Shown: positions 52,833 through 62,034 of the stretch, piece by piece
Layout: each line of letters starts with the position of its first letter
Position numbering within the stretch: the first letter of the stretch is position 1
Assembly: GCF_023195775.1 (NCBI RefSeq)
Contig: NZ_CP096205.1
Span: forward strand, 186,001-250,000
Origin: Flavobacterium azooxidireducens
Lineage (GTDB): Bacteria; Bacteroidota; Bacteroidia; Flavobacteriales; Flavobacteriaceae
Length of the DNA: 64,000 bases
Reading direction: 5' to 3'
Program-made: the position numbers and the translations under genes
The notes under the pieces: generated by a model
What the model was told of the DNA's origin: nothing
The model's database searches: none
What the model saw: only the letters and a program-made list of their open reading frames with translations

Positions 52833-55097
<2,265 letters not shown>

Positions 55098-55234: not shown

Positions 55235-55283
55235 TCTAACATAGTAATATTTAAGGGACGATAATTTCAAATAATTTTTATAC

Positions 55284-55317
55284 AAAAAAAGACAATCTTA
55301 ACCGGTTGTCTTTTTTT
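55284..55317 (+). terminator. icd-region terminator
   Basis: A-rich AAAAAAAGACAA and TTGTCTTTTTTT form a stem with a 10-base loop and a T-run. Confidence 0.85.
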
Positions 55318-55420
55318 GTTTCATTTTAAACCCTAAATTTATAAAATCGAAAAAAGTTTTAGGTTCTTCCCAACCTTTTGCCAACTATTGTGCTCTTTAT
55401 AAGAAAGCAAACCAATTGTG

Positions 55421-55954
55421 ATGGAAAAAAATATCATTCAAGCCTGCAGAAAAATGCACCGAGACGCCCAGCGGAAGGTGTATGAGCACATGGGACCCAA
55501 ATTGTATCAGTTATGCAAACGGTATCTCAAAAAAGAGGAAGAAATAGAAGAAGCTTTGGCCGATGCATTCTTTACTATTTTCACCAAAATTGATCAATTA
55601 AAAGAAGACCACGCGTTTGAAGCTTGGGCTCGAAAAATCACAGTCAATCAGTGTTTACTCACGTTGCGAAAAAATGTGAATTTTAATTTGTATTTAGAAG
55701 ATGTCAAATTATCCTCGCAACCCACAACGGACGAAATTACTGATTTGGAAGAGGAAGATTTACTCAACCTGCTTCAACTGATTCCCGACGGATGCAAAGC
55801 CATCTTTAATTTGTTTGTAATTGAAGGCTATTCACACAAAGAAATTGCACTGCAATTAGGTATTTCAGAAGGTACTTCAAAATCACAATTGAACGCTTCA
55901 AAAACCAAATTGAAAGAGTTAGTGAACAATTTTTATTATCAAAAGGCAAAATAG
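55421..55954 (+). CDS. ECF-type sigma-70 family RNA polymerase sigma factor
   Basis: A 177-residue extracytoplasmic-function sigma factor. Region 2 includes KLYQLCKRYLKKEEEIEEAL and the segment EAWARKITVNQCLL, and region 4 is CKAIFNLFVIEGYSHKEIA followed by LQLGISEGTSKSQLNASK, the recognition helix-turn-helix. The start is the ATG at 55421 (a GTG lies directly upstream). The next gene begins 2 bases after the stop and encodes a membrane-spanning protein whose short cytosolic part is the natural candidate for the anti-sigma factor. Confidence 0.93.
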   Translation: MEKNIIQACRKMHRDAQRKVYEHMGPKLYQLCKRYLKKEEEIEEALADAFFTIFTKIDQLKEDHAFEAWARKITVNQCLLTLRKNVNFNLYLEDVKLSSQPTTDEITDLEEEDLLNLLQLIPDGCKAIFNLFVIEGYSHKEIALQLGISEGTSKSQLNASKTKLKELVNNFYYQKAK

Positions 55955-55956
55955 TT

Positions 55957-58707
55957 ATGGAAAATCAAGATAAATTATACGATAAAATTCAACAAGCGGC
56001 AAAAAATGCCGAATCTAATTCATTTCCCGGAATGGAAAAAGTCTGGGCACGTGTGGAAGAAAAATTAGATAAAAAAGAAGATAAAAAAGTAATCGTTCTT
56101 TGGAAAAAATGGGCTATTGCCGCTTCTCTCCTATTGTTTGTATCCATTGGTTATCATTTTTTAAAATCGGATAAAGAAATTATTACAATTGAAAATCCAG
56201 TTGTGATTGAAAATAAAGATACAATTCAAAATGTTTCTCCTTTAAAAATTGAGAAACCGGAAGAAAAAGTGGTTGTTTCTGCTGAAGTTGAATTTGAAAA
56301 GAATTCAAATGCTGAAACAATTTCTCAAGAATCAATCCTAAAAAATTCTATTAAAAAAGAACAACAAGTGGTTTCGGTTTTTAATGACAGTTTGATGAAA
56401 TTGAATGATTTAATTGCTTTAGATGAAGAAAAAAGTAAATTAGTTTCCAAAGAAATTCCAACTGTAAAAATTTCCAGCGAAGAAATAAATAAATTAACTG
56501 GAGAACGAATGATTACCGGAGTTGTAATGGATAATTATAATGTTCCTCTTCCAGGTGCAACAGTTCTCATCAAAGGAACTTCGAAAGGAACTAATACTGA
56601 CTTTGACGGTAAATTTTCTATCAAAGCCAAAAAAGGAGAAACGTTGGAGTTTAGCTATGTTGGAATGCAAACGCAAACAGCTAAAATTGATAGTTCTACT
56701 AATTTGAATATTGCGTTAGCAGATGATAGTACATTAGAAGAAGTCGTCGTTGTAGGTTATGGAACAACTACCAAAGAAGCCTATACCGGCACTGCAACTA
56801 AAATTAGTTCAAGCGAAATAAAAAAAGATAGAAAAAGAAATAATTCAGAAAAGGCTTTAGTTTGGAACTCTAAATCTGATAAAGGTGAATTTCAAGTCAA
56901 AGCTGAAGCTCTGCAATCAAATAGTCAATCTTTACAAGGAAAAGTTGCAGGAGTCTATATTAATGATGCTAATAAAAAATTTAAGGGAAATAATAATATA
57001 ACTTTAAGAGGAACTAATTCAATAAACTCGAAAAATGAACCACTAATCATTTTAGACGGACGTCCAATTTCCCAAAAAGAGATGCAAGTGCTTAATCCAA
57101 ATGATATCAAAGATATTACGGTTTTAAAAGATGCATCAGCCACATCTTTATATGGAAGTACCGGAAGAAGTGGCGTAATCGTCATCACCTCCAAAAGCGG
57201 AAAAGTTGAAAAACTCTCCAAAAGACAACTCAAAAAGAAACTAAAAGAATTAGAAGAAGCTCAAAAACAAGCACCAAATCAATGGCCTGTTAATGATCCA
57301 ATCCAAAATGAATCGTATGAATCATTTGAAGAAAATGCCTTCGAGAGTCCGAGTACCGCACCGCTTTCTACGTTTTCGATTGATGTTGACAATGCCTCTT
57401 ACACCAACATTCGTCGTTTTATCAACAACGGGCAAACCGTGCCAAAAGATGCGGTTCGTGTGGAAGAAATGATTAACTTCTTTAAATACAATTATACTGA
57501 ACCAACCAATGAACATCCGTTTTCCATTCACACCGAATACAGCGATTGTGCTTGGAACAGCAATCACAAAGTGTTGAAAGTTGGTTTGCAAGGAAAAAAT
57601 ATTCCAACAGATAATTTACCGGCTTCCAATTTAGTTTTTCTGGTTGATGTTTCGGGTTCGATGAACGAACAAAATAAATTACCATTGCTCAAACAATCGA
57701 TGAAAATTTTGGTAGAGCAGCTTCGTAAAAAAGATAAAGTTTCGATTGTGGTGTATGCCGGAGCTGCCGGAATGGTCTTACCACCAACTTCGGGCGACGA
57801 TAAAAAGACCATTATCGATGCGTTAGAAAAATTACAAGCAGGCGGAAGCACAGCTGGTGGTGCAGGAATTGAATTAGCCTATAAAATTGCTCAGGAAAAC
57901 TTTGTCAAAAACGGAAACAACCGAGTGATTTTAGCTACTGACGGCGACTTTAATGTGGGAGCTTCATCTAATACAGACATGCAAACGTTAATTGAAGAAA
58001 AAAGAAAAAGTGGTGTTTTCCTAACTTGTTTAGGCTACGGAATGGGCAATTACAAAGACAGCAAAATGGAAACCATTGCCAACAAAGGAAACGGAAATTA
58101 TGCTTATATCGACAATATTCAAGAAGCCAATCGCTTTTTAGGAAAAGAATTCAAAGGGTCGATGTTTGCCATCGCCAAAGATGTGAAAATTCAAATCGAA
58201 TTCAATCCGCAACACGTGCAAGCCTATCGATTGATTGGGTATGAAAACCGAAAACTGAAAGACGAAGATTTTGTGAATGATACCATTGATGCCGGCGAAT
58301 TAGGAAGCGGTCACACCGTTACGGCATTGTATGAAATTATTCCGACCAACGTAAAAAGCGACTTTTTCAAAGAACCAATTGACTTAAAATATTCTAAAAC
58401 AGAAAATTCTTCAACCGTTTTTGGTAATGAATTGGCTACTATCAAATTTAGATACAAAAAACCGGATGGCGAAAAAAGTATTGAAATGGTTCAGGTTATT
58501 GAGAATAAATCAATTCCGATTGAAAATTCATCCGAAGATTTTAAATTTTCGTCCGCTGTTGCTTGGTTTGGATTGAAATTAAGAGATTCAAAATTAGTTC
58601 ATAATAAAGACAGTGAAGCCATCAAAACCTTGGCAAAAAAAGGAATTTCAATTGATGAAGATGGTTACAAATCCGAGTTTATCCGATTGGTTGAAACCGT
58701 AAAATAA
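55957..58707 (+). CDS. membrane-anchored TonB-plug/VWA (YfbK-like) fusion, putative anti-sigma
   Basis: A 916-residue protein with a rare order of domains. Residues 1-50 are cytosolic (SFPGMEKVWARVEEKLDKKE is like the N-terminal part of FecR-type anti-sigma proteins), 52-69 a single transmembrane helix, 70-180 a Glu/Lys-rich linker, about 183-265 a CarboxypepD_reg domain (ITGVVMDNYNVPLPGATVLI), then the SusC-type signature LEEVVVVGYGT and a TonB plug (about 295-410: LIILDGRPISQKEMQ, DITVLKDASATSLYGSTGRS). No beta-barrel follows. From about residue 450 on is a YfbK/VWA domain with the MIDAS motif DVSGSMN (about 564). It is thus inner-membrane, with the rest periplasmic. Confidence 0.85.
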   Translation: MENQDKLYDKIQQAAKNAESNSFPGMEKVWARVEEKLDKKEDKKVIVLWKKWAIAASLLLFVSIGYHFLKSDKEIITIENPVVIENKDTIQNVSPLKIEKPEEKVVVSAEVEFEKNSNAETISQESILKNSIKKEQQVVSVFNDSLMKLNDLIALDEEKSKLVSKEIPTVKISSEEINKLTGERMITGVVMDNYNVPLPGATVLIKGTSKGTNTDFDGKFSIKAKKGETLEFSYVGMQTQTAKIDSSTNLNIALADDSTLEEVVVVGYGTTTKEAYTGTATKISSSEIKKDRKRNNSEKALVWNSKSDKGEFQVKAEALQSNSQSLQGKVAGVYINDANKKFKGNNNITLRGTNSINSKNEPLIILDGRPISQKEMQVLNPNDIKDITVLKDASATSLYGSTGRSGVIVITSKSGKVEKLSKRQLKKKLKELEEAQKQAPNQWPVNDPIQNESYESFEENAFESPSTAPLSTFSIDVDNASYTNIRRFINNGQTVPKDAVRVEEMINFFKYNYTEPTNEHPFSIHTEYSDCAWNSNHKVLKVGLQGKNIPTDNLPASNLVFLVDVSGSMNEQNKLPLLKQSMKILVEQLRKKDKVSIVVYAGAAGMVLPPTSGDDKKTIIDALEKLQAGGSTAGGAGIELAYKIAQENFVKNGNNRVILATDGDFNVGASSNTDMQTLIEEKRKSGVFLTCLGYGMGNYKDSKMETIANKGNGNYAYIDNIQEANRFLGKEFKGSMFAIAKDVKIQIEFNPQHVQAYRLIGYENRKLKDEDFVNDTIDAGELGSGHTVTALYEIIPTNVKSDFFKEPIDLKYSKTENSSTVFGNELATIKFRYKKPDGEKSIEMVQVIENKSIPIENSSEDFKFSSAVAWFGLKLRDSKLVHNKDSEAIKTLAKKGISIDEDGYKSEFIRLVETVK

Positions 58708-58723
58708 AAAATTGGTTACTCTT

Positions 58724-58759
58724 AAAACCTGACAATTAACTCAAATTGTCAGGTTTTTT
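58724..58759 (+). terminator. VWA fusion gene terminator
   Basis: AAAACCTGACAATT (58724-58737) and AATTGTCAGGTTTT (58744-58757) form a perfect 14-bp stem with a 6-base loop, followed by T residues. The ACCTGACA core also occurs in the hairpin at 30810. Confidence 0.92.
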
Positions 58760-58833: not shown

Positions 58834-61212
58834 ATGTTTTTCAAAAGAATTAGTCTGACATTCCTCTTTCTTCTATCGTCGATTACGATGTTACAAGCAC
58901 AAGAAAAATTCACGATTAGCGGAACTATTTCCGATCAAAAAAGCAATGAATCACTCTACGGAGTTAACATCATTGTAACCGACACAAAATCGGGAGCAAC
59001 GACCAACGAATATGGTTTTTACTCCATTTCCTTATCCAAAGGAACTTATTTAATTCAAATTAGTTATGTTGGTTTTCAAACCATTGAAGAAACAATTGTT
59101 TTAGATAAAAACATTCGAAAAAACTTTTCATTATTCGAATCGAGTCAGCAATTAAGCGAAGTCGTTTTAACCGAACGAAAAGCCAAAGCAGAAATTCGTA
59201 AACCAGAAATGAGTGTGAACAAACTTTCCATCCAAGAAATCAAAGAAATGCCGGTTTTGTTAGGAGAAGTTGATATTGTGAAATCGTTGCTCACGTTGCC
59301 TGGTGTCACAAGTGCCGGCGAAGGTCAATCCGGATTTAACGTGCGTGGTGGTGGAGCCGATCAAAATTTGATTTTATTGGACGAAGCTACCATTTATAAT
59401 TCCTCTCATTTATTTGGATTGTTTTCGGTTTTTAATCCCGATGCAATCAAAGATTTGAAATTGTATAAAGGTGGAATTCCAGCTCGTTATGGTGGAAGAT
59501 TATCATCCGTTTTAGATATTTATCAAAAAGAAGGAAACAGTAAAGAATATCATGTGAATGGCGGAATTGGTATCATTTCCAGTCGATTAATGGCGGAAGG
59601 TCCAATTGTAAAAGACCGTGGCTCATTTTTGGTTGCAGGAAGAGGTTCGTATGCTCATCTATTTTTAAAACTAACTGATAATGACAATTCCGCTTATTTT
59701 TATGATTTGAATACAAAATTGAGTTACAAAATAAATGACAACAACAACGTGTATTTTTCGGGTTATTTTGGTCGTGACGTCTTTAGTTTGAATAATGCTT
59801 TTGTGAATACGTATGGAAATGCGGTATTGAATTTACGATGGAATCATTTGTTTTCGGATAAATTATTCAGCAATATGTCGTTCATTTATTCGGATTATTA
59901 TTATGGCTTAGAATTGGATTTTGTTGGTTTCGAATGGAATAGTGGTATCAAAAATTACAACTTCAAATACGATTTCAAACATTATTTAAGCGATAAATTG
60001 AAATTAACCTATGGTTTAAATACGATTTATTATGATTTTAATCCCGGTAAAATTGAACCTAGCCGTCCGGATTCAGGCATTAATGAAGACCAATTAGATA
60101 GAAAATATGCATTAGAATCGGCTGTTTATGTAGATGCCGAACATCAATTAACCGAAAAACTAACGGTTTCCTATGGATTTCGATACAGTAACTTTTTACG
60201 TTTAGGCGAGCAAACGTTGAATGTGTATGAAAACAATCAAGCAGTCAATTTTAATTCAGATTTTCAAATTTATGAAAGTGCCACTCCGATTGGAACAGTT
60301 TCCTATGGAAAAAATGAAACGATTGCCAGTTTCAACAATTTAGAGCCTCGTTTTTCTGTTTCGTATGCGTTAAATGACAATCAATCTGTAAAAGCAAGTT
60401 ATAACCGAATGAGTCAGTATTTGCATTTGATTTCAAATACACAATCGCCTACTCCATTGGATGTTTGGGCTCCAAGTGACAACTTTTTGAAACCGCAATT
60501 ATTAGATCAATATGCTATTGGTTATTTTCAAAATTTTAAAGATGATGCTTATTCTGTTGAAGTGGAAACGTATTACAAAGACATCAAAGATCGCGTAGAT
60601 TATATTGATGGTGCTAATTTAATTGCCAACGAAGCCATTGAAAGAGTCGTTTTAAACGGCCGCGGAAGAGCCTACGGATTAGAAGTTTTATTTAGAAAAA
60701 ATGCAGGTCGATTCAACGGTTGGTTATCGTACACTTTAGCCAGAACCGAACAACAAGTGTTGGGAAGAACACCTGAAGAAACCGGAATTAACAACGGAAA
60801 TTGGTACAAAACAGGCTTCGACAAATTAAACGACATTTCAATTGTTGGAAATTATAAATTGAATGAAAAATGGCGTTTTGGAGCTAATTTTTCCCTTCAA
60901 ACAGGTCAACCTGTCACTTTCCCAAATGGTCAATATGAATATTTAGGTATCACTGTTCCGAATTATGGTCTTCGAAATGAAGATCGTTTGCCAACCTATC
61001 ATCGTTTGGATGTTTCTGCGACATTAACACCTCGCAAAAACAAAGATAGAAAATGGCAAGCCGAATGGGTTTTTGGTTTTTATAATATTTACAATCGTCA
61101 AAATGCGGCTTCGATAACTTTTCGTCAAAATGATGAAACAGCTAAAAATGAGGCAGTTCGATTATCTATTTTCGGAATTGTTCCGAGTGTAACGTATAAT
61201 TTTAAATTTTAA
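58834..61212 (+). CDS. TonB-dependent receptor
   Basis: A 792-residue outer-membrane receptor. After a signal peptide (MFFKRISLTFLFLLSSITML plus QAQ) comes a CarboxypepD_reg domain (ISGTISDQKSNESLYGVNII), a plug domain (about 125-225, with GFNVRGGGADQNLILLDEAT and GGIPARYGGRLSSVLDIYQK) and a beta-barrel to the last residue Phe (YNFKF end). The barrel has no SusC-type extension. The next gene, 3 bases later, encodes a DUF4249 lipoprotein. Receptors of this type take up large ligands with energy from TonB; the ligand is unknown. Confidence 0.94.
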   Translation: MFFKRISLTFLFLLSSITMLQAQEKFTISGTISDQKSNESLYGVNIIVTDTKSGATTNEYGFYSISLSKGTYLIQISYVGFQTIEETIVLDKNIRKNFSLFESSQQLSEVVLTERKAKAEIRKPEMSVNKLSIQEIKEMPVLLGEVDIVKSLLTLPGVTSAGEGQSGFNVRGGGADQNLILLDEATIYNSSHLFGLFSVFNPDAIKDLKLYKGGIPARYGGRLSSVLDIYQKEGNSKEYHVNGGIGIISSRLMAEGPIVKDRGSFLVAGRGSYAHLFLKLTDNDNSAYFYDLNTKLSYKINDNNNVYFSGYFGRDVFSLNNAFVNTYGNAVLNLRWNHLFSDKLFSNMSFIYSDYYYGLELDFVGFEWNSGIKNYNFKYDFKHYLSDKLKLTYGLNTIYYDFNPGKIEPSRPDSGINEDQLDRKYALESAVYVDAEHQLTEKLTVSYGFRYSNFLRLGEQTLNVYENNQAVNFNSDFQIYESATPIGTVSYGKNETIASFNNLEPRFSVSYALNDNQSVKASYNRMSQYLHLISNTQSPTPLDVWAPSDNFLKPQLLDQYAIGYFQNFKDDAYSVEVETYYKDIKDRVDYIDGANLIANEAIERVVLNGRGRAYGLEVLFRKNAGRFNGWLSYTLARTEQQVLGRTPEETGINNGNWYKTGFDKLNDISIVGNYKLNEKWRFGANFSLQTGQPVTFPNGQYEYLGITVPNYGLRNEDRLPTYHRLDVSATLTPRKNKDRKWQAEWVFGFYNIYNRQNAASITFRQNDETAKNEAVRLSIFGIVPSVTYNFKF

Positions 61213-61215
61213 GTA

Positions 61216-62034
61216 ATGAAACATTTCAAATATAGTTTACTACTATTAATCAGTCTCTTAACATTTGGATGCGAAGAAGTTGTGGATGTTGATTTGAATA
61301 CAGCTCCGCCAAAATTAGTAATCGAAGCTTCCATTAATTGGGTAAGAAATACGCCTGGAAATATTCAGGCTGTAAAACTATCAACCACAACAAATTATTT
61401 TGCAGATGAAGTTCCGCCGGTTACAGATGCAATTGTAACCATTACCAATAGTGAAGGTACGATTTTTACTTTCACACAATTAGATGAACCCGGTTTATAT
61501 ATTTGTGCTGATTTTGTTCCGGTTGTAAATGAAACGTATACATTAGTTGTTGTTTATGATGGTGAAACCTATACTTCAACCGAAAGATTATTGGCCACTC
61601 CAGAAGTTATTCGTGTTGAACAACGTAATGATGGCGGTGTTTTAGGCGAGGATGTGGAAGTAAAATTCTTCTTTAATGACATTCCGAATGAGACTAATTT
61701 TTACTTTTTAGGAATTTTTGATCCTTATAAAGTTATACCGGAATACGGTGTTTTGGAAGATCGCTTTTTTGAAGACAATGAAATGTTCGGATTATATTTT
61801 AGCGAAGATTTAGTAGCAGGTGATACATTGACATTTACAATGAATGGCGTTTCGCAAAATTATTTCAATTACCTCAACATACTTTTGGCTCAAACGGGAA
61901 GTAATGCAGGTCCCTTTAGCACACCAACTTCCACCGTTCGAGGTAACATAGTTAATCAAACAAATTTTGATAATTTTGCGTTGGGTTATTTTAGATTGAG
62001 TCAAACAGAAATTAATGAGTATATTATTGAGTGA
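61216..62034 (+). CDS. DUF4249 outer-membrane lipoprotein
   Basis: A 272-residue lipoprotein: signal peptide MKHFKYSLLLLISLLTFGC with lipobox Cys19. The mature part opens with EEVVDVDLNTAPPKLVIEAS, the hallmark of DUF4249, and continues as beta-sandwich repeats (DAIVTITNSEGTIFTFTQLD). DUF4249 proteins are nearly always found immediately after a TonB-dependent receptor gene, as here, and probably cap the receptor or help bind the substrate. The C-terminal end (LRLSQTEINEYIIE-like) is complete. Confidence 0.88.
   Translation: MKHFKYSLLLLISLLTFGCEEVVDVDLNTAPPKLVIEASINWVRNTPGNIQAVKLSTTTNYFADEVPPVTDAIVTITNSEGTIFTFTQLDEPGLYICADFVPVVNETYTLVVVYDGETYTSTERLLATPEVIRVEQRNDGGVLGEDVEVKFFFNDIPNETNFYFLGIFDPYKVIPEYGVLEDRFFEDNEMFGLYFSEDLVAGDTLTFTMNGVSQNYFNYLNILLAQTGSNAGPFSTPTSTVRGNIVNQTNFDNFALGYFRLSQTEINEYIIE

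Follow-up and report, generated by a model that had tools for sequence, protein, structure and literature searches.

Comparative analysis of a 64,000-nucleotide stretch of the Flavobacterium azooxidireducens genome (assembly GCF_023195775.1, contig NZ_CP096205.1, positions 186,001 to 250,000 of the forward strand; hereafter, the window) points to a two-gene unit, in which the gene for an extracytoplasmic function (ECF) sigma factor is followed by the gene for a membrane protein that combines parts of TonB-dependent receptors with a von Willebrand factor A (VWA) domain. With a probability of roughly 0.75, we read these two genes as one autoregulated sigma/anti-sigma unit carrying a covalently attached periplasmic sensor. 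Judged from comparison with its relatives, the membrane protein is a chimera, that is, the N-terminus of the relatives' anti-sigma factor joined to the neighbouring secreted protein with a CarboxypepD_reg-like (CpD) domain and a VWA domain. The fused state, in which a putative anti-sigma factor and a SusC-like VWA protein lacking a barrel form one chain, is recurrent and comes with a predicted promoter and target set. Since the plug/CpD and VWA modules are tied to an ECF sigma factor with a predicted promoter, the activity of this factor could serve as a read-out of module function.

The sigma factor and the architecture of its partner

The sigma gene (55418..55954; like all features of the unit, on the + strand) encodes 178 amino acids. 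Both sigma regions 2 and 4 are matched in Pfam (PF04542, 3.7e-11, and PF08281, 1.2e-11), and the sigma70-ECF family TIGR02937 of NCBIfam scores 76.1 bits against a cut-off of 42.9. The initial annotation placed the start at ATG 55421; the start is probably GTG 55418, which aligns with the GTG of the relatives. In agreement with that annotation, the gene of the 916-residue protein (55957..58707) follows after 2 bases. The same gap was found in 32 of 73 loci, the whole range being from -47 to 25 bases.

The 916-residue protein starts with a cytosolic stub directly 3' of the sigma gene (residues 1-51; 55957..56109), which is common to the separate anti-sigma proteins of the relatives and is the putative sigma-binding part. 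It is followed by a single transmembrane helix, read by eye (about residues 52-69; 56110..56163). Residues W30, L37, and D38 of the stub and A55 and A56 of the helix are invariant in 16 aligned sequences. Next come the CpD domain, corresponding to the N-terminal extension of SusC (residues 186-265; 56512..56751; PF13715, CarbopepD_reg_2, 2.7e-19), a TonB-box-like motif recognized by its conservation (residues 260-269; 56734..56763), and a TonB-receptor plug (residues 313-407; 56893..57177; PF07715, 5.4e-14) with the SusC signature at residues 383-413. The C-terminal part consists of the vWF_A domain, known from the N-terminal part of YfbK (residues 450-541; 57304..57579; PF12450, 1.1e-40), the VWA domain (residues 558-720; 57628..58116; PF00092, 4.9e-20), and the YfbK_C domain (residues 735-915; 58159..58701; PF12034, 1.5e-70). 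Thus the domain set proposed in the initial annotation is recovered by Pfam and NCBIfam, including the lack of a barrel: PF00593, the beta-barrel family, is not listed by Pfam in this protein at E<=1.

The SusC-like part resembles SusC/RagA transporters in its N-terminal extension, TonB-box motif, plug, and SusC signature, and differs from them in having no beta-barrel and, in the fused form, an anchor made by a membrane helix. The SusC/RagA signature TIGR04057 of NCBIfam is above its cut-off (47.7 versus 46.2 bits), whereas the full-length SusC family TIGR04056 is below it (231.9 versus 368.25 bits), and a sequence alignment with the solved SusC homologue 8aa4_A covers residues 185-416 (1.4e-30). 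The TonB-box-like motif is the counterpart of VDEVVV in the SusC protein Bt1763, where this segment, following the N-terminal extension, is the TonB box and its deletion or mutation impairs function (PMC7782687).

A search with the whole protein gave at least 6807 relatives at E<=1e-20 among 7999 candidates, and most of the best 120 carry the full domain set; among the matches listed, the closest relatives belong to Flavobacterium. In an alignment of 57 sequences (56 of the 120 listed homologues and the window protein), residues of the stub, the CpD domain, the TonB-box-like motif, and the plug are conserved between variable linkers. In the motif, L260 is invariant and E262 and V263 are conserved at 90% or more. 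In the VWA domain, D564-x-S566-x-S568, T632, and D662 are invariant; going by the familiar pattern, we take these residues to be the metal-ion-dependent adhesion site (MIDAS), which the initial annotation had described as intact, in line with their invariance.

Fused and split forms

Gene order was compared in two samples, 150 genomes of the genus and 392 of the phylum, with vWF_A matches in 57 (56 above cut-off) and 82 genomes, respectively. We chose 147 VWA loci, 97 from the phylum and 50 of 75 from the genus, the omitted genus loci being those already in the phylum list and, for the most part, ones with short open frames. Flanks were read for 140 of them; that of L132 has no complete open reading frame (ORF).

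In the genus, a sigma gene lies upstream of the VWA gene and in the same direction in 42 of the 43 loci read, the single remaining locus (L183) being one where the stretch ends at the contig end. One ORF separates the two genes in 32 loci, more than one ORF in one, and in nine the proteins are fused. Outside the genus, 18 of 78 phylum loci have an adjacent sigma gene. The genome of F. azooxidireducens has 14 sigma region-2 genes in 3.82 Mb, so any one gene would have a sigma gene within about 2 kb by chance in about 2% of cases (our estimate, made without simulation). The pairing of sigma factor and second protein, noted from the window alone, is thus conserved in other genomes. The fused order, the only one considered in the initial annotation, is itself found elsewhere, including 16 of the best 80 named-genome loci, while most of the genus loci read are split.

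The separate second proteins of the split loci (292-390 residues) share the stub and helix of the window protein and mostly end in a SusC-like mini-plug. In one such protein, this end (residues 248-319) hits a 1018-residue frame at 3.0e-12 and other receptor-sized frames at similar values; in L127 the plug match of the separate anti-sigma protein is below the Pfam cut-off. By our own plug-tail pattern, which misses variants, this end is recognized in 39 of 43 split anti-sigma proteins versus 18 of 43 VWA proteins of the same loci. All 43 of these VWA proteins have a signal-peptide-like N-terminus by a crude pattern.

The two halves of the fused proteins have different affinities. We compared 14 fused proteins, 13 from the genus (that of the window among them) and L099 from another family. 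In every one, the first 100 residues have their best scores with the split anti-sigma proteins, and residues 201 onward with the split VWA proteins. For the window protein, medians over 43 split loci are 282 against anti-sigma and 32 against VWA proteins for the first 100 residues, and 348 against VWA and 129 against anti-sigma proteins for residues 201 onward. The simplest fusion consistent with this division is the joining of stub and helix to the mature VWA protein, with loss of the anti-sigma's own mini-plug. The initial annotation held that receptor-sensing parts had been moved into the anti-sigma protein. Receptor-type parts and a VWA domain do lie within a putative anti-sigma protein; they were probably not acquired in one step from a receptor, since the window protein consists of the relatives' anti-sigma N-terminus and a neighbouring CpD-VWA protein, and since a SusC-like mini-plug is present even in split anti-sigma proteins, those of other classes having CpD and TonB_C instead. 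In L171, the separate anti-sigma protein has a CpD domain and, by eye, a mini-plug-like end, and could represent an intermediate. At some loci, small secreted proteins with CpD and/or mini-plug segments are encoded between the anti-sigma and VWA genes (L185:3038-3685, L200:3413-3760, and L178:2488-2880).

Similar results were obtained for named genomes, which are likely to overlap with the other sampled genomes. The best 80 of 566 loci comprise, besides the 16 fused ones, 62 split loci, one without a sigma gene in the stretch, and one without an intact VWA ORF. Fused forms occur, among others, in Flavobacterium lacus (90% identity), Paenimyroides ummariense, and Taibaiella koreensis. In Flavobacterium johnsoniae CI04 (L364), the operon is split and preceded by the promoter, and the anti-sigma protein, VWA protein, TonB box, and plug are separately testable there.

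Of the 97 phylum loci, 13 have a divergent adjacent sigma gene, ten a co-directional sigma gene with one ORF between, six a direct or fused arrangement, and one is partial. In all, 29 loci adjoin a sigma gene. Of the loci counted as having none, 20 encode short proteins (<=555 amino acids), and two (L137 and L146) have a sigma gene and a second gene downstream. The other classes or families have either a divergent sigma gene with an anti-sigma protein carrying CpD and TonB_C, or a zf-HC2 domain fused to the VWA protein. In five divergent loci, the second gene encodes CpD in all five, TonB_C above cut-off in four (in the fifth, L126, 21.8 versus a cut-off of 24.6 bits), and zf-HC2 in one. The zf-HC2 domain is above the Pfam cut-off in the second gene of L075 and in the fusions L074 and L093, which belong to another family, join zf-HC2 to a CpD-VWA protein, and overlap the sigma gene by four bases. 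On a tree of 79 VWA proteins (eight of them without an upstream sigma gene; L111 was left out), the fused state requires seven changes, at least three of them by well-supported branches. Different anti-sigma N-termini, zf-HC2 versus the flavobacterial stub, favour separate fusions. Our strict TonB-box pattern, which also misses variants, was found in 10 of 13 VWA proteins of divergent loci and in 33 of 43 of split loci; it also occurs in 8 of 68 other VWA proteins, where some matches may be spurious. As far as gene order and domain content can tell, the putative sensor system is widespread in Bacteroidota and occurs there in several gene arrangements.

Predicted promoter and candidate target genes

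The sigma gene is preceded by a predicted promoter, CCCAACCTTT-N14-CTCTTTA (55369..55399, + strand), ending 18 bases before the GTG start; the general pattern ahead of the sigma gene is CCCAACCTTT-N14-CTCTWTA. In 57 of 59 related loci, CCAACCT occurs shortly before the sigma gene, the exceptions being L074 and L093, and the full pattern CCAACCTTT-N14-CTCT(A/T)TA is present in 51 of the 59. In the named genomes, the full pattern was found in 67 of 78 loci and CCAACCTTT in 74 of 78.

Sites with at most one mismatch occur in 71 of the 150 genus genomes; the reversed control pattern gave 16 matches in all. The site is present in 65 of 68 genomes with a listed stub match versus 5 of 81 without (Fisher 3.6e-32, the window genome excluded and kinship uncorrected), the 68 having been picked by hand among the matches listed that cover the query start, with weaker matches counted as absent. 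The five genomes having such a site and no listed stub match are G042, G052, G073, G085, and G161. Start-site mapping in Flavobacterium psychrophilum yielded an ECF motif different from the promoter predicted here, one having CGT as its -10 box (PMC9723704); CCAACC is absent from the main text of that paper, whose motif logos are in a figure.

In F. azooxidireducens, the pattern with its leading C has a single site at zero or one mismatch, the one at 55369-55399. We claim no wider regulon in this genome, there being two sites at two mismatches and 26 at three versus 48 matches of the control pattern. Searches of the genome gave no match for the DUF4139 and VIT families and one MG2 protein; this fits a target list reduced to the unit's own operon.

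The situation is different in relatives within the genus, where 40 exact sites among those listed were read. All 40 precede an open frame on the same strand, and the start lies within 93 bases in 38 of them, the two farther starts being at 261 bases in L279 and at 139 bases in L296. Nine sites belong to sigma operons. The others precede genes for DUF4139/DUF4140 proteins, VIT-CpD-DUF2135 proteins, very large MG2-type proteins, a CxxC protein of about 245 residues, an ExbB-to-TonB operon, an M56 cluster, and CpD or TonB_C proteins. For each kind of target except the 245-residue protein, one example is above the Pfam cut-off; other members, ExbD, and a BlaI-like gene were assigned by eye.

Some of these candidate targets recur. 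Very large secreted proteins are encoded 15-93 bases behind exact sites in L282, L290, L293, L297, L298, and L305, and an alpha-2-macroglobulin-like family could be a recurrent target, with MG2 assigned by Pfam in L305 and the others by resemblance. The CxxC protein of about 245 residues (FCNSC in L300:218-949), to which Pfam assigns no family above cut-off, has similar proteins in L277, L281, L288, L294, L295, L299, L306, L307, L309, and L310, and a protein of this type is also encoded 3' of the VWA gene in L126 and L129. The Ton-motor operon (L279:1940-4862) consists of an ExbB gene, two ExbD-like genes recognized by eye, and a TonB_C gene, and lies 261 bases behind an exact copy of the motif.

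Possible mechanism, alternatives, and known systems

ECF sigma factors are commonly held by membrane anti-sigma proteins. Sequence and comparison support the architecture described above, the chimera, the recurrent fused state, and the promoter with its association with the system; from these we infer the binding of sigma by the stub, the docking in split systems, the signal, and the release step, as follows. The sigma factor would read CCCAACCTTT-N14-CTCTWTA before its own gene, and the second protein would be an anti-sigma factor of the inner membrane that gained its periplasmic half by fusion with the adjacent periplasmic CpD-plug-VWA protein. In the off state, the cytosolic stub would hold the sigma factor. 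A periplasmic event (a ligand, a partner, or envelope strain) could be sensed by the VWA/CpD/plug part and would change or remove the stub, and the freed sigma factor would then transcribe its own operon and, in relatives, other envelope genes. In split systems, the anti-sigma and VWA proteins might dock via plug, CpD, or TonB_C, a link that fusion would make covalent.

In its sigma regions 2 and 4, the adjacent membrane protein with a cytosolic stub, and a promoter before its own gene, the unit is similar to ECF pairs of the zf-HC2 type, and zf-HC2 itself is present in three relatives of the second gene (L074, L075, and L093). It differs from these pairs in that the flavobacterial stub is in no listed family and the ectodomain consists of CpD, TonB box, plug, VWA, and YfbK_C. 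We therefore file the stub protein as one that would work like an ECF anti-sigma factor, outside the named anti-sigma families.

Several observations weigh against this reading. Residues 1-180, including the stub, match no Pfam or NCBIfam family at E<=1, and an attempt to relate the stub to the anti-sigma domain of the other classes by profile comparison gave a weak alignment, largely confined to the helix region. Not every VWA part has a plug, the tail pattern being found in 7 of the 14 fused proteins; Pfam lists no plug in the separate anti-sigma protein of L212; and the plug of the window protein scores better with anti-sigma proteins at 11 of 43 loci (with VWA proteins at 32). By the rule used, 67 of the 97 phylum loci have no sigma gene adjoining the VWA gene, and the three changes forced on the tree could equal one gain and two losses. 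Association of a promoter with a system, as derived here from sequence, is not measured transcription. Finally, 14 of the 68 genomes with the anti-sigma stub have no PF12450, and the sigma gene was read in nine of these; the VWA part would thus be unneeded for the core switch and might be its output. Operons of sigma and anti-sigma genes with the promoter, in genomes with no vWF_A match, are found in L271, L274, L275, L278, L283, L284, L286, L287, and L289, and in several of these the VWA gene is replaced by genes of small CpD or mini-plug proteins.

This last observation suggests that the VWA part could be a product made under the control of the sigma factor rather than a sensor, fused to the anti-sigma protein through co-transcription, with the anti-sigma sensing by other means. 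We regard this as a doubtful alternative, though one of some weight. The motif sites of relatives that precede other envelope genes (DUF4139, VIT-CpD, MG2) agree with it, as do the small CpD or mini-plug proteins of the operons in genomes without PF12450. However, both zf-HC2 and the flavobacterial stub are found as anti-sigma N-termini of fusions, and the linkage of VWA and sigma genes is retained in divergent, co-directional, and downstream gene orders; both points are compatible with a VWA output that feeds back on the switch. It is rather improbable that the CpD and plug segments are passive spacers, spread by shuffling and having no role in signalling. In the 14 fused proteins, half of which lack the plug-tail pattern, between 306 and 639 residues precede PF12450, and pieces of CpD and mini-plug recur in small proteins. 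Against such a passive role, the positions of CpD, motif, and plug are conserved in the 57 aligned sequences, and the mini-plug tail is recognized in nearly all split anti-sigma proteins (39 of 43).

Alternatively, the anti-sigma factor might be gated by TonB or by tension, with the TonB box and plug being gripped by TonB, a task that would fall in other classes to the anti-sigma protein's TonB_C domain, and a pull between the inner membrane and the envelope freeing the sigma factor. This is unlikely on balance and deserves to be kept in mind, given that the TonB-box motif directly follows CpD, as in Bt1763, that TonB_C is above cut-off in four of the five second genes tested from the other classes, and that in one relative (L279) an ExbB-led operon ending in a TonB_C protein lies behind the sigma motif. 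In addition, transmission of force by other inner-membrane VWA proteins, many of which have an SHLS motif, was proposed in 2025 (PMC12204202). The window protein shares with these an inner-membrane tether and a periplasmic VWA fold; it differs from them in having no SHLS near the helix and a sigma gene instead of tolQR-like genes as a neighbour, and the word sigma is absent from the main text of that paper. Among the first 120 residues of 73 second genes, including the fused ones, no SHLS motif occurs near the helix, a lone SHL string being present in the stub of L197. Moreover, just 7 of 16 fused proteins have the strict TonB-box pattern and nine lack it; a TonB box that is common in sigma-linked proteins, yet not universal, makes it less likely that the fused form depends on contact with TonB.

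Signalling of the FecI-FecR-FecA type, in which a TonB receptor at the cell surface communicates with an ECF sigma/anti-sigma pair, is also similar to our system in its combination of periplasmic receptor parts with such a pair. The difference is that here the receptor parts are in the anti-sigma protein or its partner, and neither FecR nor STN nor a barrel is listed. A gene for a TonB receptor with CpD, plug, and barrel (58834-61209) does lie downstream of the unit, followed after 3 bases by a DUF4249 gene (the pair spanning 58834-62034). Nevertheless, it is very improbable that this receptor is the signalling partner, and we rejected it as the main explanation, because at E<=1 no FecR family is listed in the second gene and no STN domain, whose role in signalling by TonB receptors is described in PMC7782687, in the receptor, and because the unit and the receptor gene are separated by a hairpin with a T run, similar to a terminator (58724..58758, + strand). 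This hairpin was read by eye and is not among the three sites listed by the terminator scan. In the close relative L097, other genes are found downstream.

Returning to a sigma/anti-sigma unit with an attached sensor, a bolder and rather speculative extension, which we think is probably wrong in at least some of its parts, is that the parts involved in the grip of the TonB machinery (CpD, TonB box, plug, TonB_C) would serve here not for import but to connect an anti-sigma factor with a periplasmic VWA protein. Docking or tension would free a sigma factor that renews an envelope-guarding set (VWA, VIT, alpha-2-macroglobulin-like, and DUF4139 proteins and the Ton motor), repeated fusion would hard-wire the link, and the arrangement would be widespread in the phylum.

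The YfbK-type VWA proteins have all three of the vWF_A, VWA, and YfbK_C domains, as does the window protein. Escherichia coli has a PF12450 match, and its YfbK is not known to have a sigma partner. In the open-licence literature, we found no description of the system considered here, and no role for plug or CpD in barrel-less Bacteroidota proteins of this kind or for their YfbK-type VWA proteins; PMC12826043 and PMC4571129 mention VWA or yfbK genes in passages that have no bearing on this system. Upstream of the unit, the window contains the gene of a monomeric isocitrate dehydrogenase (52878-55097), separated from the sigma gene by another terminator-like hairpin (55282-55319).

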